Shown here: positions 25,536 through 49,012 of the stretch, piece by piece
How the letters are laid out: each line of letters opens with the position of its first letter
Numbering within the stretch: the first letter of the stretch is position 1
Assembly (NCBI RefSeq): GCF_003934285.1
Contig: NZ_RQWJ01000002.1
Coordinates: 248,001-312,000, forward strand
Source: Brevundimonas fluminis
GTDB taxonomy: Bacteria > Pseudomonadota > Alphaproteobacteria > Caulobacterales > Caulobacteraceae
Length of the DNA stretch: 64,000 nucleotides
Reading direction: 5' to 3'
The notes under the pieces: model-generated
The model's database searches: none
Told to the model about the DNA's origin: nothing
The model's input: only the letters and a program-made list of their open reading frames with translations
Position numbers and translations under genes: made by a program

Positions 25536-26072
25536 GTGAGCCCGGATACCGTCACCCTGAGACCCGCAACGGCCGCCGACGCCCCCCTGCTGGCGGCGTG
25601 GGACCGGCAGCCGCACGTCATCGCCTGCTCCAGCGACGACCCGGACGCCGAGGTCGCGTTCGACGGCATCGACTGGGCCGACGAGCTGTCGAACTCCGCC
25701 TATGAGCTCACCTATGTGATCGCCGAGGTCGCGGGCGAGCCGGTCGGCGTCATGGCGGTGTGCGATCCGCACACGGAGCCCAGCCATTACTGGGGTGAGA
25801 TCGAGCCGGATCTGCGCGCGGTCGACATATGGATCGGCCCGCCGGAATGGCTGAACCGCGGCGTCGGCACGCGGATGATGACGCAGATGCTGGATCGATG
25901 CTTCGCCGAGCCGCGGGTGAAGGCCGTGGTGATCGACCCGCTGAACTCGAACGTGGCGGCGCACCGGTTCTATCGCCGACTGGGCTTCCGCGAGGAGGGG
26001 CGGCGGACGTTCGCCGCGGACGATTGCCTCATCATGCGGCTGACGCGGCAGGATTGGGAGGGGCAGGCATGA
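25536..26072 (+). CDS. GNAT-family N-acetyltransferase
   Basis: 178 residues from a GTG start. The acetyl-CoA motif is [15 protein letters not shown], followed by [24 protein letters not shown] and an EEGRRTF strand, which is the pattern of aminoglycoside 6'-N-acetyltransferase-like and RimJ-like proteins. The substrate cannot be told from sequence. It overlaps hrcA by 4 bp (ATGA), so it is part of the heat-shock operon by position. Confidence 0.8.
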
Positions 26073-27139
26073 GCTACCTCGGCGCTTCCGCCCCCCTGAC
26101 CGTGCTGGACCAGCGCGCGCGCGACATCTTTCGGCGCATCGTCGAGACCTATCTTCAGACCGGCGAGCCGGTGGGGTCGAGAACGCTCTCGCTGAGCGGG
26201 GTGGCGCTGTCCCCGGCGTCGATCCGCAACACCATGCAGGACCTGACGCTGGCGGGACTTCTGGCGTCGCCGCACACGTCCGCGGGACGCATTCCGACGC
26301 ATGCCGGATTGCGGCTGTTCGTAGACGGCCTGCTGGAGGTCGGGGACGTCGGCGCCGAGGAGCGGCGCGAGATCGACGCGCGGCTGGCCGGGCGGGGGCG
26401 CGGCTTCGACGAGGTGCTGAACGAGGCGTCCGCCCTGCTGTCCGGTCTGGCCGGCGGGGCGGGGATCGTCGCCAGTCCGGTGCGCGACGCCGGGGTCAAG
26501 CACGTCGAGTTCGTGGCCCTGGGTCACGATCAGGCGCTGGCGGTGCTGGTCGGCGACGACGGCACCGTCGAGAACCGCCTGATGCCCCTGAAGGCGGGGG
26601 TGACGCCCTCGACGCTGCAGGAAGCGTCGAACTTCCTGAACGCCCGGCTGAAAGGGCGTCCGCTGCACGAGACGCGCACCGAGATGCGCGCCGAGCTGGA
26701 CGCGGCGCGGCAGGAACTGGACGCGGCGGCCGCCCGCCTGGTCGAGGACGGACTGGCGGCCTGGTCCGGCGGCGGCGAGCGCGAGCGGGCCCTGATTGTG
26801 CGCGGCAGGGCGAACCTGCTGCAGGACCGCGAGGCCGTGGAGGACCTGGAACGGGTGCGCGTCCTGTTCGACGATCTGGAGCAGAAGGAGCAGCTCATCG
26901 GCCTGCTGGACGGGGTGTCGTCGGCGCAGGGCGTCCGAATCTTCATCGGCTCGGAGACGCGACTGTTTTCGCTTTCGGGTTCCGCCGTGATCGCGGCGCC
27001 CTATATGACCGGCCGGCAGCGGGTGATCGGGGCTCTGGGAGTCATCGGCCCCGCGCGGCTGAACTATGCCCGAGTGATCCCGTTGGTGGACTACACCGCC
27101 CGGGTGCTGGGCCGGATTCTGGACGGACAAGAGACGTGA
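26069..27139 (+). CDS. hrcA: Heat-inducible transcription repressor HrcA
   Basis: 356 residues. The N-terminal winged helix has [25 protein letters not shown] and [18 protein letters not shown] (DNA recognition), then [23 protein letters not shown]. The rest is the GAF-like dimerisation core ending in [19 protein letters not shown]. HrcA binds CIRCE, and a CIRCE-like site occurs before groES at 41624-41650. Overlaps both neighbours by 4 bp. Confidence 0.95.
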
Positions 27140-27762
27140 ACGAACCGACTGACGACCCGCAAGACTTCGATCCCGAGCTGGAGGCCGACGCCGAGGCCGG
27201 GCTGAACGCCCATCCGGGCGAGGACCTGGGTCCGATCGACCAGCTGATCGCCGAGCGCGACCAGTGGAAGGACCGCGCCCTGCGCGCCGTGGCCGAGGCG
27301 GAGAACACCAAGAAGCGCGCCGAGGCCCAGAACAACGACGCCCGCGCCTATGCCATCCAGCGCTTCGCGCGCGACCTGCTGGGCGTCGCCGACAATCTTG
27401 AGCGCGCGCTGCAGGCCGCGCCCAAGGACGCGGAAGGCGCCGCCGCCGGCCTGATCACCGGGCTGGAGATGACGCAGAGGTCGCTGCTGTCGGCCTTCGA
27501 GGCCAACAATCTGGTGCGGGTCGCCCCGGCGGCCGGCGAGGCCTTCGACCCGCATCTGCACCAGGCGATGATGGAGCAGCCGTCGACCGAGGTGGACGGC
27601 GGCAAGGTGATCCAGACCCTGCAGGCCGGCTACGCCCTGTTCGGCCGCACGGTGCGCCCGGCCATGGTCGTGGTGGCCGCCAAGGGTTCGAACGCGCAGG
27701 CGTCGGCGTCAGATCAGGTCGCGGGCGCCGCGGCCTATGCGAAGGCCAGCGACCAGGGCTGA
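27136..27762 (+). CDS. grpE: Nucleotide exchange factor GrpE
   Basis: 208 residues with a GTG start overlapping hrcA. An acidic N-terminus and long helix ([21 protein letters not shown]) precede the GrpE core ([74 protein letters not shown]). It releases ADP from DnaK, encoded about 2.6 kb downstream. Confidence 0.95.
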
Positions 27763-27766
27763 CGGC

Positions 27767-28258
27767 TCAGGGCGCGTCCGTCCAATCGATCTGAAGCCAG
27801 GTTTCCCCGACGCTGCCCGGCGCGTAGGTCCAAGCCAGCGTTTCCCCTCCCGCTCCGGTCATGCGCCGAGTGCCCGGGACGCCGGTCTCGAGCGGTTCGA
27901 GCCCCCGGGCGGACGCCGCTTCCACAAGCGCCGCGTCGATCGCATCGAGTGCGTTGGCGTGAGCCCGGGTGGCGACCCTGCAGGGCGGACCGACATCGCT
28001 TCGCAGCCAGCCTGATTCCAGACCAGCCTCGACGTACCCGGCATCGGCGGGCGCCGGTCCTTTCCAGCAGACGTGGGCGAGCCACGACGTCATGAAGGCG
28101 GCATGCGTCGGCGGCGGCGGAGGCGGATCGCTGCGTGGGGGGCGCGGCATCGCCGTCGCCGGCGTCGAGGCCTGAACGGCGGGACCGGGGGCGTGCGGGG
28201 CGGCGCAGGCCCCGGCCAGCAGGACGGCGGCAGCCCCGATCGGCGCGATCGCCTTCAT
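27767..28258 (-). CDS. Secreted hypothetical protein (163 residues)
   Basis: Signal peptide MKAIAPIGAAAVLLAGACA; a possible but non-ideal lipobox (AGAC). A Pro-rich spacer (RSDPPPPPPTH) leads to a globular region with WLAHVCWKGPAP, VGPPCRVATRAH and a C-terminal WTYAPGSVGETWLQIDW. Its start overlaps the stop of the Cys-repeat gene (ATGA), so the two probably act together. No family recognised. Confidence 0.65.
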   Translation of the reverse strand: MKAIAPIGAAAVLLAGACAAPHAPGPAVQASTPATAMPRPPRSDPPPPPPTHAAFMTSWLAHVCWKGPAPADAGYVEAGLESGWLRSDVGPPCRVATRAHANALDAIDAALVEAASARGLEPLETGVPGTRRMTGAGGETLAWTYAPGSVGETWLQIDWTDAP

Positions 28259-28665
28259 GTGCGGCCCGCCCGGAAGAAGGGCGCGATGGCCCGGCAGCTG
28301 AAATGCGACTCCCTCGGCGCGAGGTCGCAGTTCTCAATCAGTCCCTTGCATTCCCAGTAGCCTTCCCGCTCGGCCAGATTGCAGTTCCGCTCCACCAGCG
28401 CCTTGCAGGTCCAGTAGTCGGTGCGTTCCGCGAGGCTGCAGTTCCGATCGACCAGGGCCTTGCACAGCCAGTAGTGGGCGCTTTCGGCCAGATTGCAGTT
28501 CCGCGCCTCCAGAGCCCGGCAGAACCAGTACTGACCATCGGTCACGAGGTCGCAGTTCATCGCGGGCTCCTGGGCCGAGGCGGTCGCCGGAGTCGGGCCC
28601 CCGGACAGCCAGAGAGCGGCGACCAAGGCCGCGAGGGTCCGGCCGGGGGAAGAGACGACGTTCAT
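28255..28665 (-). CDS. Secreted protein with five 19-residue Cys repeats
   Basis: 136 residues from the ATG at 28665. After a signal peptide (ALVAALWLSGG...ATASA), five tandem units follow the pattern N-C-x-L-A-E-x3-Y-W-x-C-K-A-L-V-x-R, each with Cys at positions 2 and 13. Ten repeat Cys suggest a disulfide-linked helical solenoid, somewhat like Sel1 or Cys-rich repeat proteins. A diverged relative lies at 38447-38875. Coupled to the downstream secreted protein gene. Confidence 0.75.
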   Translation of the reverse strand: MNVVSSPGRTLAALVAALWLSGGPTPATASAQEPAMNCDLVTDGQYWFCRALEARNCNLAESAHYWLCKALVDRNCSLAERTDYWTCKALVERNCNLAEREGYWECKGLIENCDLAPRESHFSCRAIAPFFRAGRT

Positions 28666-28737
28666 GGCCGGATCACACATCCGGCGGTGGCCAAGGTCAA
28701 CGCGCGTCTCCGCTCACGTCAGATGCCGTCAGCGGCG

Positions 28738-29646
28738 TCAGGCCTTCAGCCGCGCGTCGAAAAGCTCCAGCAGCCGCCGCCAGCCGTCGCGGGCGTCGGC
28801 CTCGCGGTAGCTGTCGCGATAGTCCGCGTGGAAGCCGTGCGGCGCGGCAGGATAGACGTGGATGCCGCTGTCCGTGCGGCCCGCGCGCTGAAGCGCGGTG
28901 TTCATCTGCTCGACGGACGGCAGGGGGATGCCGCGGTCCGCCTCTCCGTAAAGGCCCAGCACCGGGCATTTCAGGTCGTCGGCCAGATCGACGGGCCACG
29001 GCTCGCCGGCGACCCTCTGTTCGGGCGTGGCCTCGGCCGACGGGGCCAGACGACCGTACCAGGCGACGCCGGCGTCCAGCGACGCGAATCGCGCGCAGGC
29101 CTGCCAGACCACCTTGCCGCCCCAGCAGAAGCCGGTGATGCCCATGCGGTCGTCGCGGACCCACGGCTGGGTCGACGCCCATTCCATGGTCGCCGAGACG
29201 TCGCCCATGACCTGCGGGTACTTCGCCGCCGCGACGATCTCCTGGACCCGCGCCATGTCGGACAGCGGCGCCGGATCCTCGACGCGGACGAAGAAGGCGG
29301 GAGCGATCGCGGCGTAGCCCGCCTTGGCCAGCCGGCGGCAGACGTCGCGGATGTACTCGTGCACGCCGAAGATTTCGGAGACGACGATCACGACCGGGAA
29401 CGGCCCGTCGCCCTGCGGTCGGGCGACGTAGGCCGGCAGCTGGAATCCGTCCGGCGCCGGATAGGTCACGTCGCCGACCTGCAGTCCCTCCGCGTCGGTG
29501 CGGATCGGCGCGGCCTGCGCCGCCAGCGCCGCGGGCGCATAGCCGGCGAAGAACAGGCTTCCCGCCGAGACGCCCGCCAGGGCCCGGCGGCTGAGGGCGA
29601 AGTCCTGCGGCTCGGAGCCTTCCGGGCGGGTCAGTCGGACGGTCAT
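28738..29646 (-). CDS. Dienelactone hydrolase family protein, Tat-exported
   Basis: 302 residues. The N-terminus carries a twin-arginine signal (LSRRALAGVSAGSLFFAGYAPAALA). The alpha/beta-hydrolase core has VVSEIFGVHEYIRDVCRRLA, the nucleophile Cys in GFCWGGK, the Asp in LYGEADRGIP and His in APHGFHADYR, which is the Cys-Asp-His triad of dienelactone hydrolases. The periplasmic location is inferred from the signal. Substrate unknown. Confidence 0.87.
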   Translation of the reverse strand: MTVRLTRPEGSEPQDFALSRRALAGVSAGSLFFAGYAPAALAAQAAPIRTDAEGLQVGDVTYPAPDGFQLPAYVARPQGDGPFPVVIVVSEIFGVHEYIRDVCRRLAKAGYAAIAPAFFVRVEDPAPLSDMARVQEIVAAAKYPQVMGDVSATMEWASTQPWVRDDRMGITGFCWGGKVVWQACARFASLDAGVAWYGRLAPSAEATPEQRVAGEPWPVDLADDLKCPVLGLYGEADRGIPLPSVEQMNTALQRAGRTDSGIHVYPAAPHGFHADYRDSYREADARDGWRRLLELFDARLKA

Positions 29647-30181: not shown

Positions 30182-30315
30182 GCCGCCTGACCCGAGAAAC
30201 CCCGCGATCGCTGGGGCTTCTCATAAACAGACACCAAACCCACGGGGGCGGTCACGCGCGGCGCTTGATCCAAGGCCGCCGCATCGCCCGCCGAAACGGA
30301 GACGAAGACCAGACC

Positions 30316-32223
30316 ATGGCCAAGATCATCGGTATCGACCTCGGCACCACCAACTCCTGCGTCGCGGTGATGGAGGGCGGCTCGCCCAAGGTCATCGAGA
30401 ACGCCGAGGGCAACCGCACCACCCCGTCGGTGGTCGCCATCCAGGACGGCGGCGAAATCCTCGTCGGCCAGCCGGCCAAGCGTCAGGCGGTGACCAACCC
30501 CGCCAACACCTTCTTCGCCATCAAGCGCCTGATCGGCCGCAACTTCGACGACCCCGTCGTGGCCAAGGACAAGGGCATGGTGCCCTATGAGATCGTCAAG
30601 GGTCCGACCGGCGACGCCTGGGTCAAGGCCCACGGCAAGGACTATTCGCCCCAGCAGGTCTCGGCCTACATCCTAGGCAAGATGAAGGAGGCCGCCGAGG
30701 CCTATCTGGGCGAGAAAGTGACCCAGGCCGTCATCACCGTTCCGGCCTATTTCAACGACAGCCAGCGCCAGGCCACCAAGGACGCCGGCAAGATCGCCGG
30801 CCTCGAGGTCCTGCGCATCATCAACGAGCCGACCGCGGCCGCCCTGGCCTACGGGCTTGAGAAGAACGACGGCCAGAAGATCGCGGTCTACGACCTGGGC
30901 GGCGGCACCTTCGACGTCTCGATCCTGGAGATCGGCGACGGCGTGTTCGAGGTGAAGTCCACGAACGGCGACACCTTCCTGGGCGGCGAGGACTTCGACC
31001 TGCGCCTGGTCGACTACCTGGCCGACGAGTTCAAGAAGGAGCAGGGCGTCGACCTGCGCCAGGACAAGCTGGCCCTGCAGCGCCTGAAGGAAGAGGCCGA
31101 GAAGGCCAAGAAGGAGCTGAGCTCCACGACCCAGTACGAGGTCAACCTGCCCTTCATCACCATGAACGCGTCGGGCCCGCTGCACCTGAACATCAAGCTC
31201 TCGCGCGCCAAGCTGGAGGCCCTGGTCGAGGATCTGGTCCAGCGCACCATCGAGCCGTGCAAGAAGGCGCTGGCCGACGCCGGCATGAAGGCGTCGGACA
31301 TCGACGAGGTGGTGCTGGTCGGCGGCATGACCCGGATGCCCAAGGTGCAGGAGGCCGTGAAGGCCTTCTTCGGCAAGGAGCCGCACAAGGGCGTGAACCC
31401 CGACGAGGTCGTGGCGCTGGGCGCCGCGGTGCAGGCCGGGGTGCTGCAGGGCGACGTGAAGGACGTGCTGCTGCTGGACGTGACGCCCCTGACGCTGGGC
31501 ATCGAGACCCTGGGCGGCGTGTTCACGCCCCTGATCGAGCGCAACACGACCATCCCGACCAAGAAGAGCCAGACCTTCTCGACCGCCGACGACAACCAGT
31601 CGGCCGTGACGATCCGGGTCTTCCAGGGCGAGCGGCCGATGGCGCAGGACAACAAGCTGCTGGGCCAGTTCGACCTGATGGGCATCCCGCCGGCGCCGCG
31701 CGGCATGCCGCAGATCGAGGTCGCCTTCGACATCGACGCCAACGGCATCGTGCACGTGACGGCCAAGGACAAGGCCACCAACAAGGAGCAGTCGATCCGC
31801 ATCCAGGCCAACGGCGGCCTGTCGGACGCCGACATCGAGAAGATGGTCAAGGAAGCGGAGGCCAACGCCACCGCCGACAAGGCCCGCAAGGACCTGGTGG
31901 AGGCCCAGAACTCGGCCGACGCCCTGATCCACTCGACCGAGAAGGCCCTGTCGGAGCACGGCGACAAGATCGGCGCCGAGGAGAAGACGGCCATCGAAAC
32001 CGCCTTGACCGACCTGAAGGCGGCCAGGGACGGCGCCGATCCGGAAGCCATCCGTGAGAAGACCAACGCCCTGGCCCAGGCCTCGATGAAGCTGGGCGAG
32101 GCCATGTATGCGGCCCAGCAGGGTTCGGGCGAGGCCGCCGCCGAGGGCCAGCCGGCCGACGACGGCGTGGTCGACGCCGAGTTCGAGGAAGTCTCGGACT
32201 CCGACGACAAGAAGAGCGCCTGA
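30316..32223 (+). CDS. dnaK: Molecular chaperone DnaK (Hsp70)
   Basis: 635 residues. ATPase domain with [13 protein letters not shown] at the start, [12 protein letters not shown] and [16 protein letters not shown]; linker [16 protein letters not shown]; substrate domain; and an acidic C-terminus ending in [18 protein letters not shown] start at MAKIIGID (30316), since upstream codons are untypical. Works with GrpE (27136) and DnaJ (32388). Preceded by an RpoH promoter and followed by a terminator. Confidence 0.98.
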
Positions 32224-32243
32224 GGCGCCTGAAATCCGGGAAC

Positions 32244-32280
32244 GGCCCCGCTTGTCATCCGACGGGCGGGGCCTTTTCTT
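32244..32280 (+). terminator. Rho-independent terminator after dnaK
   Basis: GGCCCCGC and GCGGGGCC arms (8 bp) with a 14-nt loop, followed by TTTTCTT. It separates dnaK from dnaJ. Confidence 0.85.
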
Positions 32281-32284
32281 AAGC

Positions 32285-32312
32285 CTTGCATCACCGGATC
32301 GGGTTCCCATGT
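32285..32312 (+). promoter_or_regulatory. RpoH-type promoter of dnaJ
   Basis: CTTG, exactly 17 bp, CCCATGT, starting 5 bp after the dnaK terminator and 103 bp before the dnaJ start. It explains how dnaJ can be expressed despite the terminator. Confidence 0.65.
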
Positions 32313-32387
32313 CAGCCCGGTCATCGCCGGTCCTTCAGACGTCGGAACGACGCGGGGACGGGCGGAGAGTCAGAGGATCCCCGCCGC

Positions 32388-33563
32388 ATGGCGCAGCGCG
32401 ACTATTATGAGGTTCTGGGCGTCGAGCGGACGGCCGACGCCGCCGTTCTGAAGGCCGCCTATCGCAAGCTGGCGATGCAGCATCACCCCGACCGCAACGG
32501 GGGCTGCGAAGAGTCCTCGGCCAGGTTCAAGGAAGTCTCCGAGGCCTACGCCGTCCTGTCGGATCCGCAGAAGCGCGCCCATTACGACCGCTTCGGCCAC
32601 GCGGGCGGCCCCGGCGGCAATCCGTTCGGTCAGGGACAGGGCTTCGCCGACGTCAACGACATCTTCGCCCAGGTCTTCGGCGACGCCTTCGGGGACGTGT
32701 TCGGCGGCCGCGCCGGCGGCGGCGCGCGGGGCGGCCCGCGCCGGGGCTCCGACCTGCGCTACGACCTCGAGATCACGCTGGAGCAGGCCTATCAGGGCGC
32801 GGAGGTGGAGATCTCGGTTCCCGCGACGCTGACCTGCACGACCTGCGAGGGCTCGGGCGCCAAGGCCGGCACCCAGCCCGTCACCTGCACCACCTGCGGG
32901 GGGCAGGGCCGGGTGCGCACCGCCAACGGCTTCTTCCAGATGGAGCGCACCTGCCCGCGCTGCGGCGGCCAGGGCAAGATGATCGCCGAGCCCTGCACCA
33001 GCTGCATGGGTCACGGCCTGGTGCGCAAGACCCGCACGCTGAACCTGCAGATCCCCGCCGGGGTCGACGACGGCTCGCGCATCCGCCTGACGGGCGAGGG
33101 CGACGCCGGCCAGCGTGGCGGCCCGCGCGGCGACCTCTACGTCTTCCTGTCGGTGACGCCGCACGACCTGTTCGAGCGCGACAACCTCGACCTGCTGGTC
33201 ACCGTGCCGGTGCCGATGACGGTCGCGGCGCTGGGCGGAGAGATCGAGGCGCCCTGCCTGGTCAGCCAGGCCTGCGACGGCAATTGCAAGGCGCCCGTCA
33301 CCGTCCCCGCCGGCGCCCAGACCGGCAAGACCGTGCGCATCAAGGGCAAGGGCATGCCGCACCTGAACGGAAAGACCCGCGGCGATCTGGTGGTCGAGCT
33401 GTTCGTCGAGACGCCGACCGACCTGACCGCGCGTCAGAAGGAGCTGCTGCAGGAGCTGGCGGATTCGCTGGGCGAGACCCAGACGCCGCGCAACTCCAGC
33501 TTCACGGGCAAGGCCAAGCGGTTCTGGGCCGACATCCTGGGCAGCGGCGAGACGGCCCAGTGA
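32388..33563 (+). CDS. dnaJ: Chaperone DnaJ (Hsp40)
   Basis: 391 residues. J-domain with HPD at 33-35 (QHHPDRN), a Gly/Phe-rich linker (GGPGGNPFGQGQGF), four zinc-finger repeats (CTTCEGSG, CTTCGGQG, CPRCGGQG, CTSCMGHG) and the C-terminal substrate domain. One oddity is an insert EAPCLVSQACDGNCKAPV with three Cys in the C-terminal domain. ATG at 32388; the stop overlaps the GTG start of dapB. Confidence 0.97.
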   Translation: MAQRDYYEVLGVERTADAAVLKAAYRKLAMQHHPDRNGGCEESSARFKEVSEAYAVLSDPQKRAHYDRFGHAGGPGGNPFGQGQGFADVNDIFAQVFGDAFGDVFGGRAGGGARGGPRRGSDLRYDLEITLEQAYQGAEVEISVPATLTCTTCEGSGAKAGTQPVTCTTCGGQGRVRTANGFFQMERTCPRCGGQGKMIAEPCTSCMGHGLVRKTRTLNLQIPAGVDDGSRIRLTGEGDAGQRGGPRGDLYVFLSVTPHDLFERDNLDLLVTVPVPMTVAALGGEIEAPCLVSQACDGNCKAPVTVPAGAQTGKTVRIKGKGMPHLNGKTRGDLVVELFVETPTDLTARQKELLQELADSLGETQTPRNSSFTGKAKRFWADILGSGETAQ

Positions 33564-36618: not shown

Positions 36619-36761
36619 GCCGGAGAGGGAGCCACGGTTACGTCGGGGGAGGCAAGGGTGGAGGACGCCATCATCATGGGACGATCGCGCGTCAGGTTTC
36701 GGGGGTTGGTGTCACGGCCGGGCGGTGCGCAAGTTTCGCCAGCTGATCCGGAGAGATGACC

Positions 36762-37196
36762 ATGTTGAACGTGATGAGCCTCGTCGGGGCTCTCGTCATG
36801 CAGGATCCGACTTGGGAGCTCTTCTGCGTCTCGGACGCCACGGGAACCATCGAGCCTGTCGTGGCGGCTGAAGCGCAGGACGGATCGTGGCGCACGCTTT
36901 CCGAAGATTCGAATTTTCCGGCCGAGCCTTCGGATCTGCCCGGCGCGAGAACGAAACAATGGTTCGCCTACGGGACGGAGATCGAGTGGGCCGGCGTACG
37001 CTACGTACCCTCCGGAAGTCCGACCGGCGTAACCGCGTTGAACCGCTACCTGCGTCACCAAGGCGTGCTCGACGGTGTGCCGGTCTACTCGTGGTGGCCC
37101 GGGGGGGATCGGGACCTGGCCTTGCTGGTCGATGCCCGCGGCTGCGTCTTTCAGACCTACTCGCCCGTGTCAGAACGACGTGACCACTCAGCCTAG
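36762..37196 (+). CDS. Hypothetical protein (144 residues)
   Basis: Starts at the second ATG (36762), which has a properly spaced GGAGAG site; the ATG at 36756 is too close to it. A short hydrophobic N-terminus (MLNVMSLVGALVM) may be an uncleaved or weak signal. The rest is soluble with several Trp (WFAYGTEIEWAGVRYVP; VYSWWPGGDRDLALLVDARGCVF). No family recognised. Converges on and overlaps by 4 bp the next gene. Confidence 0.6.
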   Translation: MLNVMSLVGALVMQDPTWELFCVSDATGTIEPVVAAEAQDGSWRTLSEDSNFPAEPSDLPGARTKQWFAYGTEIEWAGVRYVPSGSPTGVTALNRYLRHQGVLDGVPVYSWWPGGDRDLALLVDARGCVFQTYSPVSERRDHSA

Positions 37197-37981
37197 TCCA
37201 CCACGCCTCCCACGGCCTGGCAGTGCTGCGTGAGCTTCGTCATCAGGTGTGAGACGCGGCGAGCCCGATGCTCAGTGTCGACCCAGAGAAACCCTTCTCC
37301 CCCGTCGGTTCGCATCCGGATGCCCGGCGCCGGGCCGACCAGATAGGGTTCGGCGGTCGCTCGCCGCCACTCCACCGGCGAGACCGTGCGCCCATCCGGC
37401 TGACCCGCCGCCGAGTGACTTTCGACAAGTCGCGCCTGGCACGGGCGTCCCTGTAAGGTGTAGCGGAAATCAAGGCCCGCGGCGGTCCGACGTATCGCCT
37501 CCAGTTCGAGCTTGAGCGATTGAAACGCGTCGACCGCCCTCTCCTCCGCGCTGAAGGACGCCCCACGAGATCTCGTGGCCGCATCCGCGCAGGCGTCGAT
37601 GAGGAAGGCCAAATGAGCCTCGACATTGGTCCGCGCTCTGACCGAGCCGGCTGAGAAGGTGAAAGCGCCATCGGCAGGGCTGACGAACTCCACAGTGTGG
37701 TAGCCGCCGTCTTCCTCGTAACTTCTGACCGTCGCGTGCTCCAGAGAAAGGGGCTGGGACGCACCGGTCGAACCGTCACTCCAGATTTGAACCAGGGTCG
37801 GCCGACAGGCGGCGCCGATCAAAGTGTAACTCTGCACCCGATCATCGTCCCGGACCCGGACCTGCTCGAACGCCGCCTTGCTTTGGCGGAACGCCTCAGC
37901 TGTGCCCAGCTGCGACTGGGCAAGACACGGCGGCGCGTGCATGGCCGCCAAGGCCAAGGTCATCTCAAGCAAGCGGCGCAT
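37193..37981 (-). CDS. Secreted hypothetical protein (262 residues)
   Basis: From the ATG at 37981 it has a signal peptide (MRRLLEMTLALAAMHAPPCLAQ). Two similar halves may be present: each has a short beta region with Cys (YTLIGAACRPTLVQIWSDGS; FRYTLQGRPCQARLVESHSA) followed by VRSYEEDGG... or VEWRRATAEP..., suggesting an internal duplication of about 110 residues. No known family. Confidence 0.6.
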   Translation of the reverse strand: MRRLLEMTLALAAMHAPPCLAQSQLGTAEAFRQSKAAFEQVRVRDDDRVQSYTLIGAACRPTLVQIWSDGSTGASQPLSLEHATVRSYEEDGGYHTVEFVSPADGAFTFSAGSVRARTNVEAHLAFLIDACADAATRSRGASFSAEERAVDAFQSLKLELEAIRRTAAGLDFRYTLQGRPCQARLVESHSAAGQPDGRTVSPVEWRRATAEPYLVGPAPGIRMRTDGGEGFLWVDTEHRARRVSHLMTKLTQHCQAVGGVVD

Positions 37982-38015
37982 CAGGCTCTCTCCGTCGTCC
38001 AAAGGGCGCATGACA

Positions 38016-38435
38016 TCAGCCCGGCTCCACCTGCCAGACCGTGCACCTGGCGATCCAGTGCTCAAGCTCGCGGACAAGGGTGGGATACGAGCGAGTTTCA
38101 AACGCGTGCATGCACCGTCCATCAGAATCGAAATGCAGCGGTACGTGTTTGATCCGACGCCCCTTGGGCGAGCGTGGCCAAGGCTGGTATCCGACCGTCA
38201 GGTGAAAGACGCCGTGGACATCGAATTCGGGTCGCAAATCAACGTCGATGTTGAATCGGCGCGCGGCGTTCACCGCGTGAAACAGCGTCGCCCCGCCGAC
38301 CTGGCTCAGGTCGTCGTCCATCGCGAGCCGCAGCTTGTTGACGGCGATCAGCCAGCCGCCCGGGATGCGCAGGGGCTGCATCAAGCCGTAGGCGTCCGAC
38401 GCAGGATATAGCTCGTGATCCGGGGGGATGCGCAA
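38016..38435 (-). CDS. Hypothetical protein (about 139 residues; start uncertain)
   Basis: Begins probably at a TTG (LRIPPDHELYPASD) just after the Cys-repeat gene; an ATG at 38495 would overlap that gene by 49 bp. Distinctive segments: PLRIPGGWLIAVNKL, AVNAARRFNIDVDLRPEFD, YQPWPRSPKGRRI, FETRSYPTLVRELEHWIARC. The pattern looks conserved and globular, but I cannot name it. Not secreted. Confidence 0.55.
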   Translation of the reverse strand: MRIPPDHELYPASDAYGLMQPLRIPGGWLIAVNKLRLAMDDDLSQVGGATLFHAVNAARRFNIDVDLRPEFDVHGVFHLTVGYQPWPRSPKGRRIKHVPLHFDSDGRCMHAFETRSYPTLVRELEHWIARCTVWQVEPG

Positions 38436-38446
38436 TCGACGGCTCG

Positions 38447-38875
38447 TCAGCCGTCGGATCGGGGCGGCAAGGCGGCGCGCAGTGCCGTGCACCAAGCCTG
38501 CCCGCGCTCATCCAGTTCGTCGCAGCGCCTCTGAACCACCGCATGGCACAGCGCTCCCCGATCCAGCGGGACGTAGGAGCAGTACCGCTGGGTCAGCCCG
38601 CGGCACAGGCTCTGTCCCGCATCGTCCGCGATCAGGGAACAGGTCGCCGTCGTGACGGCCCGGCAAAAGGAGACGCCGTCGCCGGTGGCCAGGCTGCAGT
38701 TTCGCGCCAGCAAGGCCTCGCACAGCGCCGCGTCGGAGTCACGGAGCGGGCTGCAGACCGACACGCCCTTCGGGTCCTGCAATTCTCCCCGGCTCGGCGA
38801 GGCGAGCGAGGGCGACGGCCACAGGCCGACGCACAGAGCAAGGACGGCGGCGCAGCGGGCCAGGACTTGAAACAT
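38447..38875 (-). CDS. Secreted protein with five diverged 19-residue Cys repeats
   Basis: 142 residues. Signal peptide (CAAVLALCVGLWPSPSLA). The mature part has five units of about 19 residues, each with Cys near positions 2 and 13, for example NCSLATGDGVSFCRAVTTA and YCSYVPLDRGALCHAVVQR. The same periodicity and Cys spacing occur in the protein at 28255-28665, so the two are diverged relatives. Function unknown; a periplasmic binding or scaffold role is possible. Confidence 0.72.
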   Translation of the reverse strand: MFQVLARCAAVLALCVGLWPSPSLASPSRGELQDPKGVSVCSPLRDSDAALCEALLARNCSLATGDGVSFCRAVTTATCSLIADDAGQSLCRGLTQRYCSYVPLDRGALCHAVVQRRCDELDERGQAWCTALRAALPPRSDG

Positions 38876-39024
38876 GGGCGCTCTCCTTGCGACCCACTAT
38901 AGATGCTGACGGCGGCGCGTCTTCTGACGAAAGCCGACTTGGGGCCATCAGGGACCGTCAGATCGAGAGGCTTGATCGCCCATCGGAAATCGCCGTTACT
39001 CTCACCATCGAATGGGAGGAAGGC

Positions 39025-39486
39025 ATGATCAAGCGCAGGATGATCGCGGCGGCGGGCGGGCTTCTCATGTTGAACGGGTGCGCCGTCGCGGACTGGATCT
39101 CCGCGCCGTGCTCCGACCCGTGCACGCCCTACCAAGCCCCCCAGCAAGTCTACAATCCGTACACGGGCACTTCGAGCTATGTGTACGGCGCGCCGCCGCA
39201 GCAGCAGGTCTATGTTCCGATGAGCCAGCCCGCTTCGTCGGCGACGGCGCCGGCGCAGCCGTTCGTGCCTCAGGAGGCCTATTCCGACGGCACGCCATAT
39301 TCGACCGCCCCCCAAGGGACCGGCAACGGGCCGGCGATCATCGTCGATCAGAATTGGCCATATAGCCAGCCGCAGCAGCCTGCAGCCCCGACTTGGACAC
39401 CACCGTCTTCGACGCCGTCGGCCCCGCCGGCGGAAGGACCGATAAGGCAGCCGTGTTACCCGACTTCCTGCGTGAATCCCCAGTAG
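39025..39486 (+). CDS. Pro/Gln-rich lipoprotein
   Basis: 153 residues. Lipobox LNGC after a short signal (MIKRRMIAAAGGLLMLNGC), so it is likely anchored in a membrane. The mature chain is low complexity (YQAPQQVYNPYTGTSSY, PPQQQVYVPMSQPASS, PPSSTPSAPPAEG) with Cys pairs near each end. A GGAGGA site precedes the ATG. Role unknown, possibly envelope structural. Confidence 0.7.
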   Translation: MIKRRMIAAAGGLLMLNGCAVADWISAPCSDPCTPYQAPQQVYNPYTGTSSYVYGAPPQQQVYVPMSQPASSATAPAQPFVPQEAYSDGTPYSTAPQGTGNGPAIIVDQNWPYSQPQQPAAPTWTPPSSTPSAPPAEGPIRQPCYPTSCVNPQ

Positions 39487-39512
39487 CCGACGAACGTCGT
39501 CGTTGGCCGGAC

Positions 39513-39575: not shown

Positions 39576-41264
<1,689 letters not shown>

Positions 41265-41279
41265 TCAGGCGCCGGGTGC

Positions 41280-41567
41280 TTAGGACAGCACGCCCAGGAC
41301 GTCCGATTCCTTCATGATGATCAGGTCTTCGCCGTCGATCTTGACCTCGGTGCCCGACCACTTGCCGAACAGGATGCGGTCGCCGGCCTTCAGCTCCAGG
41401 GCGTTGACCTTGCCGCTGTCGTCCCGGGCGCCGGGGCCGACGGAGACGACTTCGCCTTCCTGCGGCTTCTCCTTGGCGGTGTCGGGGATGATGATCCCGC
41501 CCTTGGTCTTCGATTCCTCTTCCACGCGCTTGACCAGCACGCGATCGCCGAGCGGACGAAACGCCAT
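41280..41567 (-). CDS. groES: Co-chaperonin GroES
   Basis: 95 residues, [36 protein letters not shown] containing the mobile loop, then [13 protein letters not shown] and [32 protein letters not shown]. Standard length. First gene of the operon, with a CIRCE-like element and an RpoH-like promoter upstream. Confidence 0.98.
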
Positions 41568-45666: not shown

Positions 45667-46134
45667 ATGTCCTGCGGTCTGGCCCTCGCCGTCGCCCTGT
45701 CCCTGACCGATCCCGCCGTCGCCACGGCCGCCGCCCGGCCGGCGTGGACGCCGGGCGACCCCGTGACCGTCGCCGAAGAGCCGCTGTTCCTCGACATCGT
45801 CGCCCGGGCCGGCAAGCTGAAGACCACGGCCGAGGGCTGGGCCGCGATGGATCTCGTCGCCGTGCTGGGCGGCCCGGACTGGACCGCGTTCAAGGCCGAC
45901 GCCCTGGCGCTGGCCGAGCGCGACATGCAGGGGCATCTGGTGCTGAAGGAACGCGGCGTCGACGGCGACCTGAAATGCATCCTGCGCGGCATTTCCGAGG
46001 ACATCCCCGTCCGCCTGACCGCGCTGGAAAGCGCCGCGACCCCGGAAGAGCGCGCCTCCGCCCTGTCGGAACTGGTTCACCTGTTCGACGACAACGTGGC
46101 GGTGATCACCGCCCCGCCGCAGCCGGAAGTCTAG
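45667..46134 (+). CDS. Secreted hypothetical protein (155 residues)
   Basis: Start at 45667 after an AAGGA site; an ATG at 45619 would put a basic stretch ahead of the signal peptide (CGLALAVALSLTDPAVATAAA). The mature part is helical: ILFLDIVARAGKLKTTAEGWAAMDLVA-like, LAERDMQGHLVLKERGVDGDLKCILRGISEDIPVRL, ELVHLFDDNVAVI. One Cys. It looks like a small conserved alphaproteobacterial envelope protein, but I cannot name it. Ends at the redoxin gene, opposite strand. Confidence 0.65.
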   Translation: MSCGLALAVALSLTDPAVATAAARPAWTPGDPVTVAEEPLFLDIVARAGKLKTTAEGWAAMDLVAVLGGPDWTAFKADALALAERDMQGHLVLKERGVDGDLKCILRGISEDIPVRLTALESAATPEERASALSELVHLFDDNVAVITAPPQPEV

Positions 46135-46793
46135 GCCTCGGCCTCCACCGTCTCCGGATACTTGATCGAGCAGCCGTAGGGCTGGGCGAAGGGCGTCGCG
46201 ACGGGGCGGCCGGCCTCGAGGTCCGTCAGGGCCGCGCGGACGAAGTTGTTGGCGCCTTGCAGATCCTCGACCTTGTTGGTCGGGCGGTCGTCGATGCCGC
46301 CGACGTAGACCAGACGCCCCTCCGGATCGATGATCCGCATGTTCGGCGTGGTCTTCGCGTCGTAAAGCTTGCCGACCTGACCGGTCGGATCGAGCAGCAG
46401 ATGGGTCCACGCGCCGTCGTGCTTCGCCTTGAAGGCCCGGGCGGCCTCGCCTTCGACGAAGCCCTGCGTCCCCGGCGCCGAGGAGATGATCGTCAGCCAG
46501 ATGACGCCGTCGGCCGTCGCTTCGCGCTGCAGCGCCTGCATGGCGCCCGCCGAATAGTGCTTCTGGACATAGGGGCAGCCTTCGTTCGTCCACTCGATCA
46601 CGACGGTCTTGCCGCGGAAGTCGGCCAGGCTGCGCTGGACGCCGTCGGAATCGACCAGGGTGAAGACCGGGGCCGCGGGCAGGGCCGCGGTCGAGGCGGC
46701 CGCCGTCTCCGTCTTCGGCTCGGGCGTCTCCGACGCGGGCGAACAGGCGACGAGGGCCAGGACGGCGGCGCAGGCGAGGGTCACGCGGATCAT
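46131..46793 (-). CDS. Redoxin-domain lipoprotein (AhpC/TSA-like)
   Basis: 220 residues. Lipobox VACS after MIRVTLACAAVLALVAC. Thioredoxin-like fold with FTLVDSDGVQRSLADFRGKTVVIEWTNEGCPYVQKHY, where the peroxidatic-type Cys is not followed by a CxxC partner; YDAKTTPNMRIIDPEGRLVYVGGIDDRP is the family end. A second Cys lies at the C-terminus (YGCSIKY). 18 bp downstream of the DsbD-like gene, so it may receive electrons from it. Confidence 0.85.
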   Translation of the reverse strand: MIRVTLACAAVLALVACSPASETPEPKTETAAASTAALPAAPVFTLVDSDGVQRSLADFRGKTVVIEWTNEGCPYVQKHYSAGAMQALQREATADGVIWLTIISSAPGTQGFVEGEAARAFKAKHDGAWTHLLLDPTGQVGKLYDAKTTPNMRIIDPEGRLVYVGGIDDRPTNKVEDLQGANNFVRAALTDLEAGRPVATPFAQPYGCSIKYPETVEAEA

Positions 46794-46810
46794 CGGGCGT
46801 CTCCTTGGGG

Positions 46811-48934
46811 TCAGCGGGCGGAAGTCTCCTGAAGGGCGCGGACGACCGTGCCCTCGGTCAGCAGTTGCGGCAGGATGCGGGGCTCGCCGCCCCCGGCCGG
46901 ATAGAGCAGATACAGGGGAACGCCCGAGCGGCCGTGGCGGGCCAGCTCGGCGGCGATGACGTCGTCGCGCCGCGTCCAGTCGCCGACCAGATAGACCGCG
47001 TCCGCCGCCTCCAGCGCCTGCGCCACGCGCCCGGACGTCAGGGCGGCGCGCTCGTTGATCTTGCAGGTCACGCACCAGTCGGCCGTGAAGTTGACCAGCA
47101 CGGTCCGGCCCTCGGCGCGCGCCGCGGCGACGGCGTCGGCGGACCAGGGCCGCGACGACAACACGGAGGCGGACGTGGCTCCTTCCGCCCCGGTGGCCGG
47201 CGCGGGCAGCATCGCCGACGTTCCGGCCAGACCGCCGCCGCCAAGCAGGGCGAGGGTCGCGGCGACGGCGCTCAGGATGGCGGGCCGCCCCTCCGTCCGC
47301 GCCGCCTGGTTCACACCCGCCAGCCACAGGCCGAAGGCGACCATGAGGGCGGCGGCGAACAGCAGCGCCAGGGCTTCGGCCCCCGCCTGACGGCTGAACA
47401 CCCAGGCCAGCCACAGGGCCGTGCCGTACATGGGGAAGGCCAGCACGCCCTTCAGCCGTTGCATCCAGGGCCCCGGCCGCGGCAGCCGGCGCAAGACGGC
47501 CGGGCTGAAGCTGACGGCGACGTAGGGCAGGGCCAGTCCGAGGCCCAGCATGGCGAAGACCAGCAGGGCGACGGGCCACGGCATGACGAGCGCGGCGCCC
47601 AGCGCCAGGGCCATGAAGGGCGCGGTGCAGGGCGCGGCCACGACCACGGCCAGCACCCCGGTGAAGAAGGCGCCGACCCCGCCCGGCAGGCGCGACAGCG
47701 GGCCCGATCCGGCGGCCGCCTGCAGCCCCGCGCCGACGTGATAGACGCCCGACAGGTTCAGCCCCACCGCCAGCATCAGCAGGCTCAGGCCGGCCATGAC
47801 GCCCGGCGACTGCAGCTGGAAGCCCCAGCCGACCGCCTGTCCCGCCGCCCGCAGCGCCAAGAGCGCCCCGCCCAGCGCGACGAAGGCGACCAGCACCCCG
47901 GCGAGGAAGGCCAATCCGTCGCGCCGGGCGCGCGGGGCGTCGTGCGCGGCCGAGGCCAGCGAGGCGGCCTTCATCGCCAGAATCGGAAAGACGCAGGGCA
48001 TCAGGTTCAGAATCAGCCCGCCGATCAGGGCCAACCCCAGCGCGGTCACCACGCCCACGGCCGCGCCGCCGCCCGGCCCCACCTCCTCCGCCAACGCCCC
48101 GCCGCCCGAAGTTCCGGGCAGGAGCTCGCCGGGCTGGGCCGTGATCTCGAAGGCGCCGCGGTCGGTGTCGAGCACGCCCGCCAACGGTCGCGCCTCGGTT
48201 CCGAAGCCCCGCCCCGGGGTCAGCGTCAACGTCAGGCCGTTCGGACCGCGGGTTCCGGTCTGCGCCGCCGCATGGTCCAGCAGCCCGCCCTCGAACGGGA
48301 AGAAATAGCCCCGGGTGACGCCCTCCAGCTCCGTGCCGGCGGCGGTCAGCACGGGCCGGCCGTCGTCGCCGAGGGTGATCCGCGCCGCGATCGGCGCGGG
48401 GCGAGGACTGGTCTCCAGCACCCGGCGGATGGCCCCGGCGTGTTCCGTGTCGGTCGCGGCGCCCGGCGCCACGGGCAGCGCCAGCGACAGCTCCAGTTCG
48501 TCCGGGACGCACATCTCTGCGCTGCAGACGAGGAAAAGGGCGGTGACGGTGAAGGTCTGTCGGGATCCCGGCGCGGCGTCGGCGGGGACCTGGACGGGCA
48601 CGGGCAGGTAGACGACGCCGGAATAGCCGTAGTTCATCAGCTCGCCGAGGCGTTGCCGCTCCGGCAGGGGCCAGACGATCCCGCCGGCGGAAAAGCCGCG
48701 GGGGAGGCGCCAGTCCAGCGTCGTCGCCCCGCCCGAGTCGCCGGGATTGCGCCAGTAGGTGTGCCAGCCCGGCTCGATGTCCTGCCGCACCGCCAGCATC
48801 AGGGTCGACCCCGGCGTCGCCCACGCCGACATCGAGACCAGCTCGGCCTCGATCCGCTCGGTGGACTTCGGCTGGGCCGCCGCCAGCGTCGGCCACAGCA
48901 GGATGGCCAGGATCAGGGCGAGCAGGCGGCGCAA
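46811..48934 (-). CDS. DsbD/ScsB-like thiol-disulfide reductase
   Basis: About 707 residues. N-terminal DsbD-alpha-like domain with the Cys pair CSAEMC, eight or so membrane helices containing two conserved Cys (NLMPCVFPILAMK; VVAAPCTAPFMALALG), and a C-terminal thioredoxin domain with ADWCVTCK. Moves electrons from cytoplasm to periplasm. The start is a TTG at 48934 with GGAGG 7 nt upstream and a proper signal peptide (LRRLLALILAILLWPTLAAAQ); the longer frame adds an unlikely leader. Operon with the redoxin gene. Confidence 0.87.
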   Translation of the reverse strand: MRRLLALILAILLWPTLAAAQPKSTERIEAELVSMSAWATPGSTLMLAVRQDIEPGWHTYWRNPGDSGGATTLDWRLPRGFSAGGIVWPLPERQRLGELMNYGYSGVVYLPVPVQVPADAAPGSRQTFTVTALFLVCSAEMCVPDELELSLALPVAPGAATDTEHAGAIRRVLETSPRPAPIAARITLGDDGRPVLTAAGTELEGVTRGYFFPFEGGLLDHAAAQTGTRGPNGLTLTLTPGRGFGTEARPLAGVLDTDRGAFEITAQPGELLPGTSGGGALAEEVGPGGGAAVGVVTALGLALIGGLILNLMPCVFPILAMKAASLASAAHDAPRARRDGLAFLAGVLVAFVALGGALLALRAAGQAVGWGFQLQSPGVMAGLSLLMLAVGLNLSGVYHVGAGLQAAAGSGPLSRLPGGVGAFFTGVLAVVVAAPCTAPFMALALGAALVMPWPVALLVFAMLGLGLALPYVAVSFSPAVLRRLPRPGPWMQRLKGVLAFPMYGTALWLAWVFSRQAGAEALALLFAAALMVAFGLWLAGVNQAARTEGRPAILSAVAATLALLGGGGLAGTSAMLPAPATGAEGATSASVLSSRPWSADAVAAARAEGRTVLVNFTADWCVTCKINERAALTSGRVAQALEAADAVYLVGDWTRRDDVIAAELARHGRSGVPLYLLYPAGGGEPRILPQLLTEGTVVRALQETSAR

Positions 48935-49012
48935 GCGGACCTCCGGAGGGTTCGCCTCCGTCCTACCGGTCCCGGGGCCCGGGTCCAAGCGGCGGCGACG
49001 CCGCAGCCGCCG

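Follow-up and report, generated by a model that had tools for sequence, protein, structure and literature searches.

A family of five-unit cysteine-repeat proteins in Brevundimonas with a predicted single-helix, 19-residue unit: a candidate new repeat fold

Introduction

What kind of protein carries two cysteines at a fixed distance in each of five consecutive units of about 19 residues, does it belong to a known family, and what might it do? These questions are raised by two genes of Brevundimonas fluminis found in a stretch of 64,000 nucleotides (contig NZ_RQWJ01000002.1, positions 248,001 to 312,000), hereafter the window, whose own numbering is used for all features below. A preliminary description made from the letters of the window proposed that both genes encode secreted repeat proteins and that these might form a new disulfide-linked solenoid. 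We examined the repeats, their relatives in other genomes, their genomic setting and their predicted structure.

Results

Two genes of the window encode five-unit cysteine repeats

The first gene (28255-28665, minus strand) encodes a protein of 136 amino acids when read from its ATG, or of 141 amino acids from an alternative upstream ATG at 28680. We term it repeat protein 1. Residues 1-31 (28573-28665, minus strand) are predicted to form a Sec signal peptide with cleavage after ASA, the signal peptides of both repeat proteins having been called by eye from signal-peptide rules. Past this signal-like start the protein has exactly ten cysteines, with gaps of 10, 7, 10, 7, 10, 7, 10, 6 and 10 residues, and this spacing delimits five minus-strand units: unit 1 at 28498-28554 (C-x10-C), unit 2 at 28441-28497, unit 3 at 28384-28440, unit 4 at 28330-28383 and unit 5 at 28273-28329. 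The two cysteines of a unit occupy positions 1 and 12 of its approximately 19 residues. Autocorrelation of the sequence gave a best lag of 19 with 33 of 80 identities, a value reached in 0 of 5000 shuffles, and the five-fold repeat first described is thus real. The consensus proposed for it, N-C-x-L-A-E-x3-Y-W-x-C-K-A-L-V-x-R, is exact in units 2 and 3, whereas units 1, 4 and 5 are degenerate and unit 4 has 18 residues.

Repeat protein 1 had also been described as coupled to a second secreted protein, and the arrangement supports an overlap with a second gene whose product looks exported: the stop codon overlaps the start codon of a second minus-strand gene (27767-28258) in the sequence ATGA at 28258-28255. 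This gene encodes a predicted lipoprotein of 163 amino acids whose lipobox was read by eye. It matched no Pfam family at E <= 1, and 131 genomes of the same genus held one other match, a weak one (30%, 1.5e-4). A simple scan of 27600-28900 revealed neither a sigma-70-type promoter nor a terminator, and the whole window yielded no tRNA and no Rfam family at gathering score.

The second gene (38447-38875, minus strand), which had been pointed out as a diverged relative, encodes repeat protein 2, a protein of 142 amino acids with five units running from 38755 down to 38468. The relationship holds, with BLASTP aligning the two proteins at 30% identity over 107 residues (E 2e-10). Repeat protein 2 likewise has exactly ten cysteines, with gaps of 10, 7, 10, 7, 11, 7, 10, 7 and 10 residues, and its unit 3 has 20 residues; the claim that both proteins share the same unit length and cysteine spacing therefore stands for the ten cysteines and five units of each, with single-residue departures in the spacing. 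The best autocorrelation lag is again 19 (18 of 83 identities, reached in 8 of 5000 shuffles). The unit-by-unit register of repeat protein 2 is uncertain, because comparing it one unit out of register gave a marginally higher score than the in-register comparison (0.231 vs 0.206) and several small alignments came out shifted by one unit. Plus-strand translations at the coordinates of both genes are other frames, open and free of the repeat pattern.

In the genomes searched, the family is found in Brevundimonas

A look for further paralogs, as had been suggested, uncovered one: a 153-amino-acid protein encoded on contig C4 of the same genome and 51% identical to repeat protein 1. A profile search of 131 Brevundimonas genomes found members in 7 of them, nine genes in all, three being those of B. 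fluminis and the others distributed one each over six further Brevundimonas genomes. Five units and exactly ten cysteines are present in all nine, and a three-unit cysteine pattern, applied as a regular expression to the 70 sequences collected, was restricted to these nine genes.

Searching at the level of the family recovered members in 7 of 390 genomes, all Brevundimonas. Outside the genus, three weak matches were obtained in a sample of the class (385 genomes; E 0.00125-0.00507) and three in a sample of the phylum (398 genomes; E 0.00421-0.00873). Very diverged members could have been missed by these searches, since the candidates scored per genome were limited to at most 10 in the family, class and phylum searches and at most 30 in the genus search. 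All six outside matches were rejected: five contain internal stops, and none carries three units in an open frame by the regular expression. The best of them, L021 from the class sample, shows C-x7-C-x10-C-x7-C over 38 residues in its central 114 bases on the minus strand, with three stops; it is probably a coincidence selected by the profile, the alternative being a degenerated copy. The open-frame match, L023, carries a single C-x10-C.

An alignment of one branch of the family, termed subfamily B, used to scan genome contigs, detected three loci, in Brevundimonas denitrificans, Brevundimonas sp. UBA7664 and the metagenome-assembled genome GW715_bin.29, whose genes have 300 exact bases in common with those of genomes G205, G226 and G232. 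The same kind of scan with repeat protein 1 as query confirmed no member. With repeat protein 1 as sole query, there was no match in plasmid and phage records and no pattern match in viral contigs.

The repeat genes are accessory and change neighbors

The two-gene segment of repeat protein 1 and its lipoprotein partner (971 bp, 27767-28737, minus strand; ends known to within three bases, with TGA at both) is absent from the matching site of a close relative, G177. There the flanking DNA is 85-91% identical and the stop codon of the hydrolase gene runs straight into the grpE-side sequence. Three other genomes, G049, G168 and G205, also lack the segment and have 100, 73 and 229 bases, respectively, between the aligned flanks. 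G177 has a homolog of its own at a different locus; the corresponding site of B. fluminis measures 202 bases instead of 1463. DNA of G177, G049 and G168 did not match the interval 36662-39505 around repeat protein 2 at E <= 0.001. Inspection of the ends of four variable segments for inverted repeats produced nothing convincing. Near repeat protein 2, the proteins encoded at 37196-38122 and 38019-38411 had no Pfam family at the cut-offs used.

The C4 paralog is one of a series of neighboring genes whose products look exported, and downstream of it lies a gene called TIMP-like from a Pfam search of its G049 copy. Contig C7 of the same genome has a second copy of this series that lacks the repeat gene, and the TIMP-like gene is present in both. 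In G049, too, a TIMP-like gene (locus L010, 1960-2409) adjoins the repeat gene; its exported-looking product matches Pfam TIMP at 9.7e-6, above the cut-off. Subfamily-B genes stand alone between an asparaginase-family gene (Asparaginase_2, 1.1e-58 in locus L026) and a radC-like gene, both neighbors lying on the opposite strand. The repeat genes are accordingly accessory: their locus varies from one Brevundimonas strain to another, and at some loci they are accompanied by unlike exported-looking partners.

The cysteines are invariant and an array of five units is probably ancestral

Nine sequences, one from each gene, were aligned; ten cysteine columns and two alanine columns proved invariant. 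Four subfamily-B comparisons gave dN/dS values of 0.24, 0.28, 0.30 and 0.31, from which these orthologs appear to be under purifying selection. Repeat protein 1 against the C4 paralog gave 0.32 and the close pair L002/L010 gave 0.68; the value of 1.03 for repeat proteins 1 and 2 (dS 0.93, dN 0.96) is unreliable because of their divergence and alignment.

Units of the same index were more alike across proteins than units of other index (0.324 vs 0.252; 0 of 5000 permutations), in a comparison that took six of the nine proteins and left out that of L024-L026. Since a unit is closer to its same-numbered counterparts in other proteins than to their other units, an array of five appears to be the ancestral state. 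Within the unit, the positions of highest entropy were 8, 16, 6, 5, 19 and 7 (2.63-3.05). In the subfamily-B protein L011 the 19-residue period of the sequence has faded (best lag 11, 13 of 87 identities, reached in 88 of 5000 shuffles), yet its cysteine spacing is kept. The G177 homolog, L009, carries an in-frame TAG at about 1815-1920, between the signal-like stretch and five intact units, possibly reflecting a pseudogene or a sequencing error.

Each unit is predicted to form one short helix

AlphaFold2, supplied with mature repeat protein 1 and three relatives (4 sequences), returned an all-helical model (pLDDT 87.3, pTM 0.79; 84.5-87.3 over the five models). Its helices span residues 12-23, 31-42, 50-60, 69-79 and 87-101, measure 11-12 residues except for 15 in the last unit, and are each preceded by a three-residue helical turn; no strand is predicted. 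The hydrophobic moment over the helix positions peaks at 100 degrees (3.40, vs 1.71 at 120, 1.70 at 160 and 0.44 at 180 degrees). For repeat protein 2, modeled from a two-row alignment, five helices were again predicted, weakly (pLDDT 66.0, pTM 0.49; 44.5-51.2 for the other four models).

No similar fold was detected for the repeat protein 1 model by Foldseek, either in the PDB (15 matches at E <= 10, best 3.5) or in BFVD (42 matches at E <= 10, best 1.7), and VIA-align placed 0 of 67 chains at Z >= 2. The proposed disulfide-linked solenoid has gained a confident model in which every unit forms a short helix, and the PDB and BFVD searches brought up no counterpart. The disulfides and their pairing are putative, and a regular solenoid of helices is suggested by the equality of the units.

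The unit differs from those of named repeat families

The preliminary description knew of no named family with this periodicity and singled out Sel1 as the home to look for. That assessment still holds: the Sel1 profile had no match at E <= 1 in the six members scanned out of the nine genes, and the 15 PDB matches obtained with Foldseek at E <= 10 included no Sel1 or Hcp chain. Sel1 and Hcp units are two-helix hairpins of about 36-44 residues, unlike the units of 18-20 residues found here, with one helix each in the repeat protein 1 model. Short cysteine spacing at helix junctions is also a feature of HcpB and HcpC of Helicobacter. In Csep1P of Campylobacter concisus, the hairpins carry the pairs Cys-59/68, 97/106 and 156/165, with x8 spacing (PMC12904459). 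Csep1P and the repeat proteins are both helical and secreted (the latter presumably), with regular cysteine pairs and an x7 or x8 spacing at the helix junction (PMC12904459); they differ in that Hcp and Csep1P are described with one disulfide per two-helix hairpin, as opposed to two cysteines and one short helix per 19 residues. Disulfide-braced helical repeats are therefore already known; confirmation of the structure would make a 19-residue unit with one helix and two cysteines a new fold.

LRV repeats (PF01816; 1lrv) alternate an alpha helix with a short 3-10 helix over about 24 residues and are not known to have a cysteine pair per unit. The proteins described here resemble them in having a helix and a short helical turn per repeat and differ in unit length and in the cysteine pair; LRV was absent both from the Pfam matches at E <= 1 and from the Foldseek matches. 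The GLG1-type cysteine-rich repeat (PF00839) had no match at E <= 1 in six members. PHROGs offered no family for six members (best 0.021), PADLOC none for five window proteins, and PDB sequences none with a single protein (best 0.17) or a profile (best 0.34). The NCBIfam search covered repeat proteins 1 and 2 and the partner lipoprotein. In the parts searched of Pfam, NCBIfam, PHROGs, PADLOC, PDB sequences, PDB folds and BFVD, no family emerged; weak, short or scattered matches to DUF3737, bacteriocin and metal-domain families, set out below, were rejected as homes. Searches of the open-licence PMC literature on 19-residue cysteine repeats, cysteine-rich secreted tandem repeats of Brevundimonas and disulfide-rich alpha-solenoids brought up nothing about this family, and those on LRV and DUF3737 nothing of use.

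Discussion

A proposed exported, disulfide-braced helical scaffold

We favor the reading that these proteins are exported, disulfide-braced helical binding scaffolds of five units of about 19 residues, and give it a probability of roughly 0.5. The five-unit proteins would be exported to the periplasm or secreted, as their signal-like starts suggest. Each unit would consist of one alpha helix following a three-residue helical turn, with Cys 1 in the turn and Cys 12 in mid-helix. After export, the ten cysteines would be oxidized to five disulfides, most likely within units, perhaps with the help of a Dsb system: the window contains a gene for a DsbD-like thiol:disulfide interchange protein (46811-48988, minus strand; DsbD_N 3.6e-18, DsbD_TM 6.3e-12, Thioredoxin_7 7.4e-17). 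These disulfides would hold the short helices together as a small, rigid stack, whose variable positions 5-8, 16 and 19 might contact an extracytoplasmic ligand or partner. In favor of this reading count the confident helical model, the invariance of the ten cysteines, the hydrophobic moment, the purifying selection in subfamily B, the resemblance of same-numbered units and the DsbD-like gene. Against it, the partner genes differ between loci with no constant partner seen, the model draws on 4 sequences and that of repeat protein 2 is weak, dN/dS is comparatively high in the close pair mentioned above, the G177 homolog has an in-frame TAG, and the 19-residue period of the sequence has faded in subfamily B. 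A more ambitious version, in which the family represents a new repeat fold of its own, a single-helix disulfide-stapled 19-residue solenoid that Brevundimonas would use as a portable scaffold for export, acquired and lost as its partner genes change, is put forward tentatively, with the odds leaning slightly against it.

The main rival on chemistry pairs the cysteines differently, joining Cys 12 of one unit to Cys 1 of the next (C-x7-C), in what could be a shortened derivative of a Sel1-type Hcp protein. C-x7-C, or x6, is present at four of four unit borders in nine of nine proteins, and an x7 spacing is close to the x8 of the hairpin disulfides given for Csep1P (PMC12904459). Such pairing would, however, leave the first Cys 1 and the last Cys 12 without partners although both are invariant; pairing within units leaves no cysteine unpaired, because Cys 1 opens and Cys 12 closes every array. 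Together with the lack of Sel1 or Hcp matches in the profile and fold searches reported above, this makes the alternative rather unlikely.

On function, the main rival is a bacteriocin-like small secreted antagonist, with the overlapping lipoprotein as its immunity partner. The protein is indeed small, cysteine-rich, exported-looking and accessory, and overlaps a predicted lipoprotein gene; a weak match to lactococcin G-alpha (NCBIfam NF038035; 1.3e-4, 22 bits vs a cut-off of 37) and one to Antimicrobial17 in one of six members (Pfam, 0.0035) point the same way. The lactococcin match, however, spans just 10 residues, and since subfamily-B genes stand alone and other loci have unrelated neighbors, no constant immunity gene is seen. 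We consider an antagonist distinctly improbable.

That the cysteines bind a metal or cofactor and form no disulfides is a still fainter prospect: ten regularly spaced cysteines and matches to Zn_ribbon_LapB (0.0065) and zf_CopZ (0.14), in one of six members each, would suit it, but these matches are weak and confined to single members, and the presumed location is exported and oxidizing. Finally, a diverged DUF3737-type beta-helix hardly deserves credence: DUF3737 (PF12541), itself a beta-helix with a C-x7-C-like spacing, resembles the repeats in a YW-x-C-like spacing and matches two of six members at E <= 1 (E 0.0017 for repeat protein 1), but that match reaches 18.1 bits against a gathering cut-off of 23.9 and scatters 76 residues across 175 profile positions, and the confident model is helical and without strand.

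Should the disulfide-braced scaffold prove true, it would provide a compact helical repeat stapled by cysteines, distinct from the Sel1 type with its two helices and combining a fixed framework with a variable surface; such a unit would lend itself naturally to use as a scaffold in binding or design. It would also offer a test case for bacterial disulfide machinery facing ten cysteines in about 100 residues, with the patchy presence of the genes within one genus supplying natural knock-outs.

Two features of the surroundings may be recorded. Both repeat genes sit amid chaperone genes, possibly by coincidence: 25829-27762, 30265-33563 and 39576-41567 of the window presumably correspond to hrcA/grpE, dnaK/dnaJ and groES/groEL. 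Just downstream of the DsbD-like gene and on the same strand (46131-48988 for both), an AhpC/TSA-redoxin domain is encoded, at residues 741-878 of a 921-amino-acid frame.
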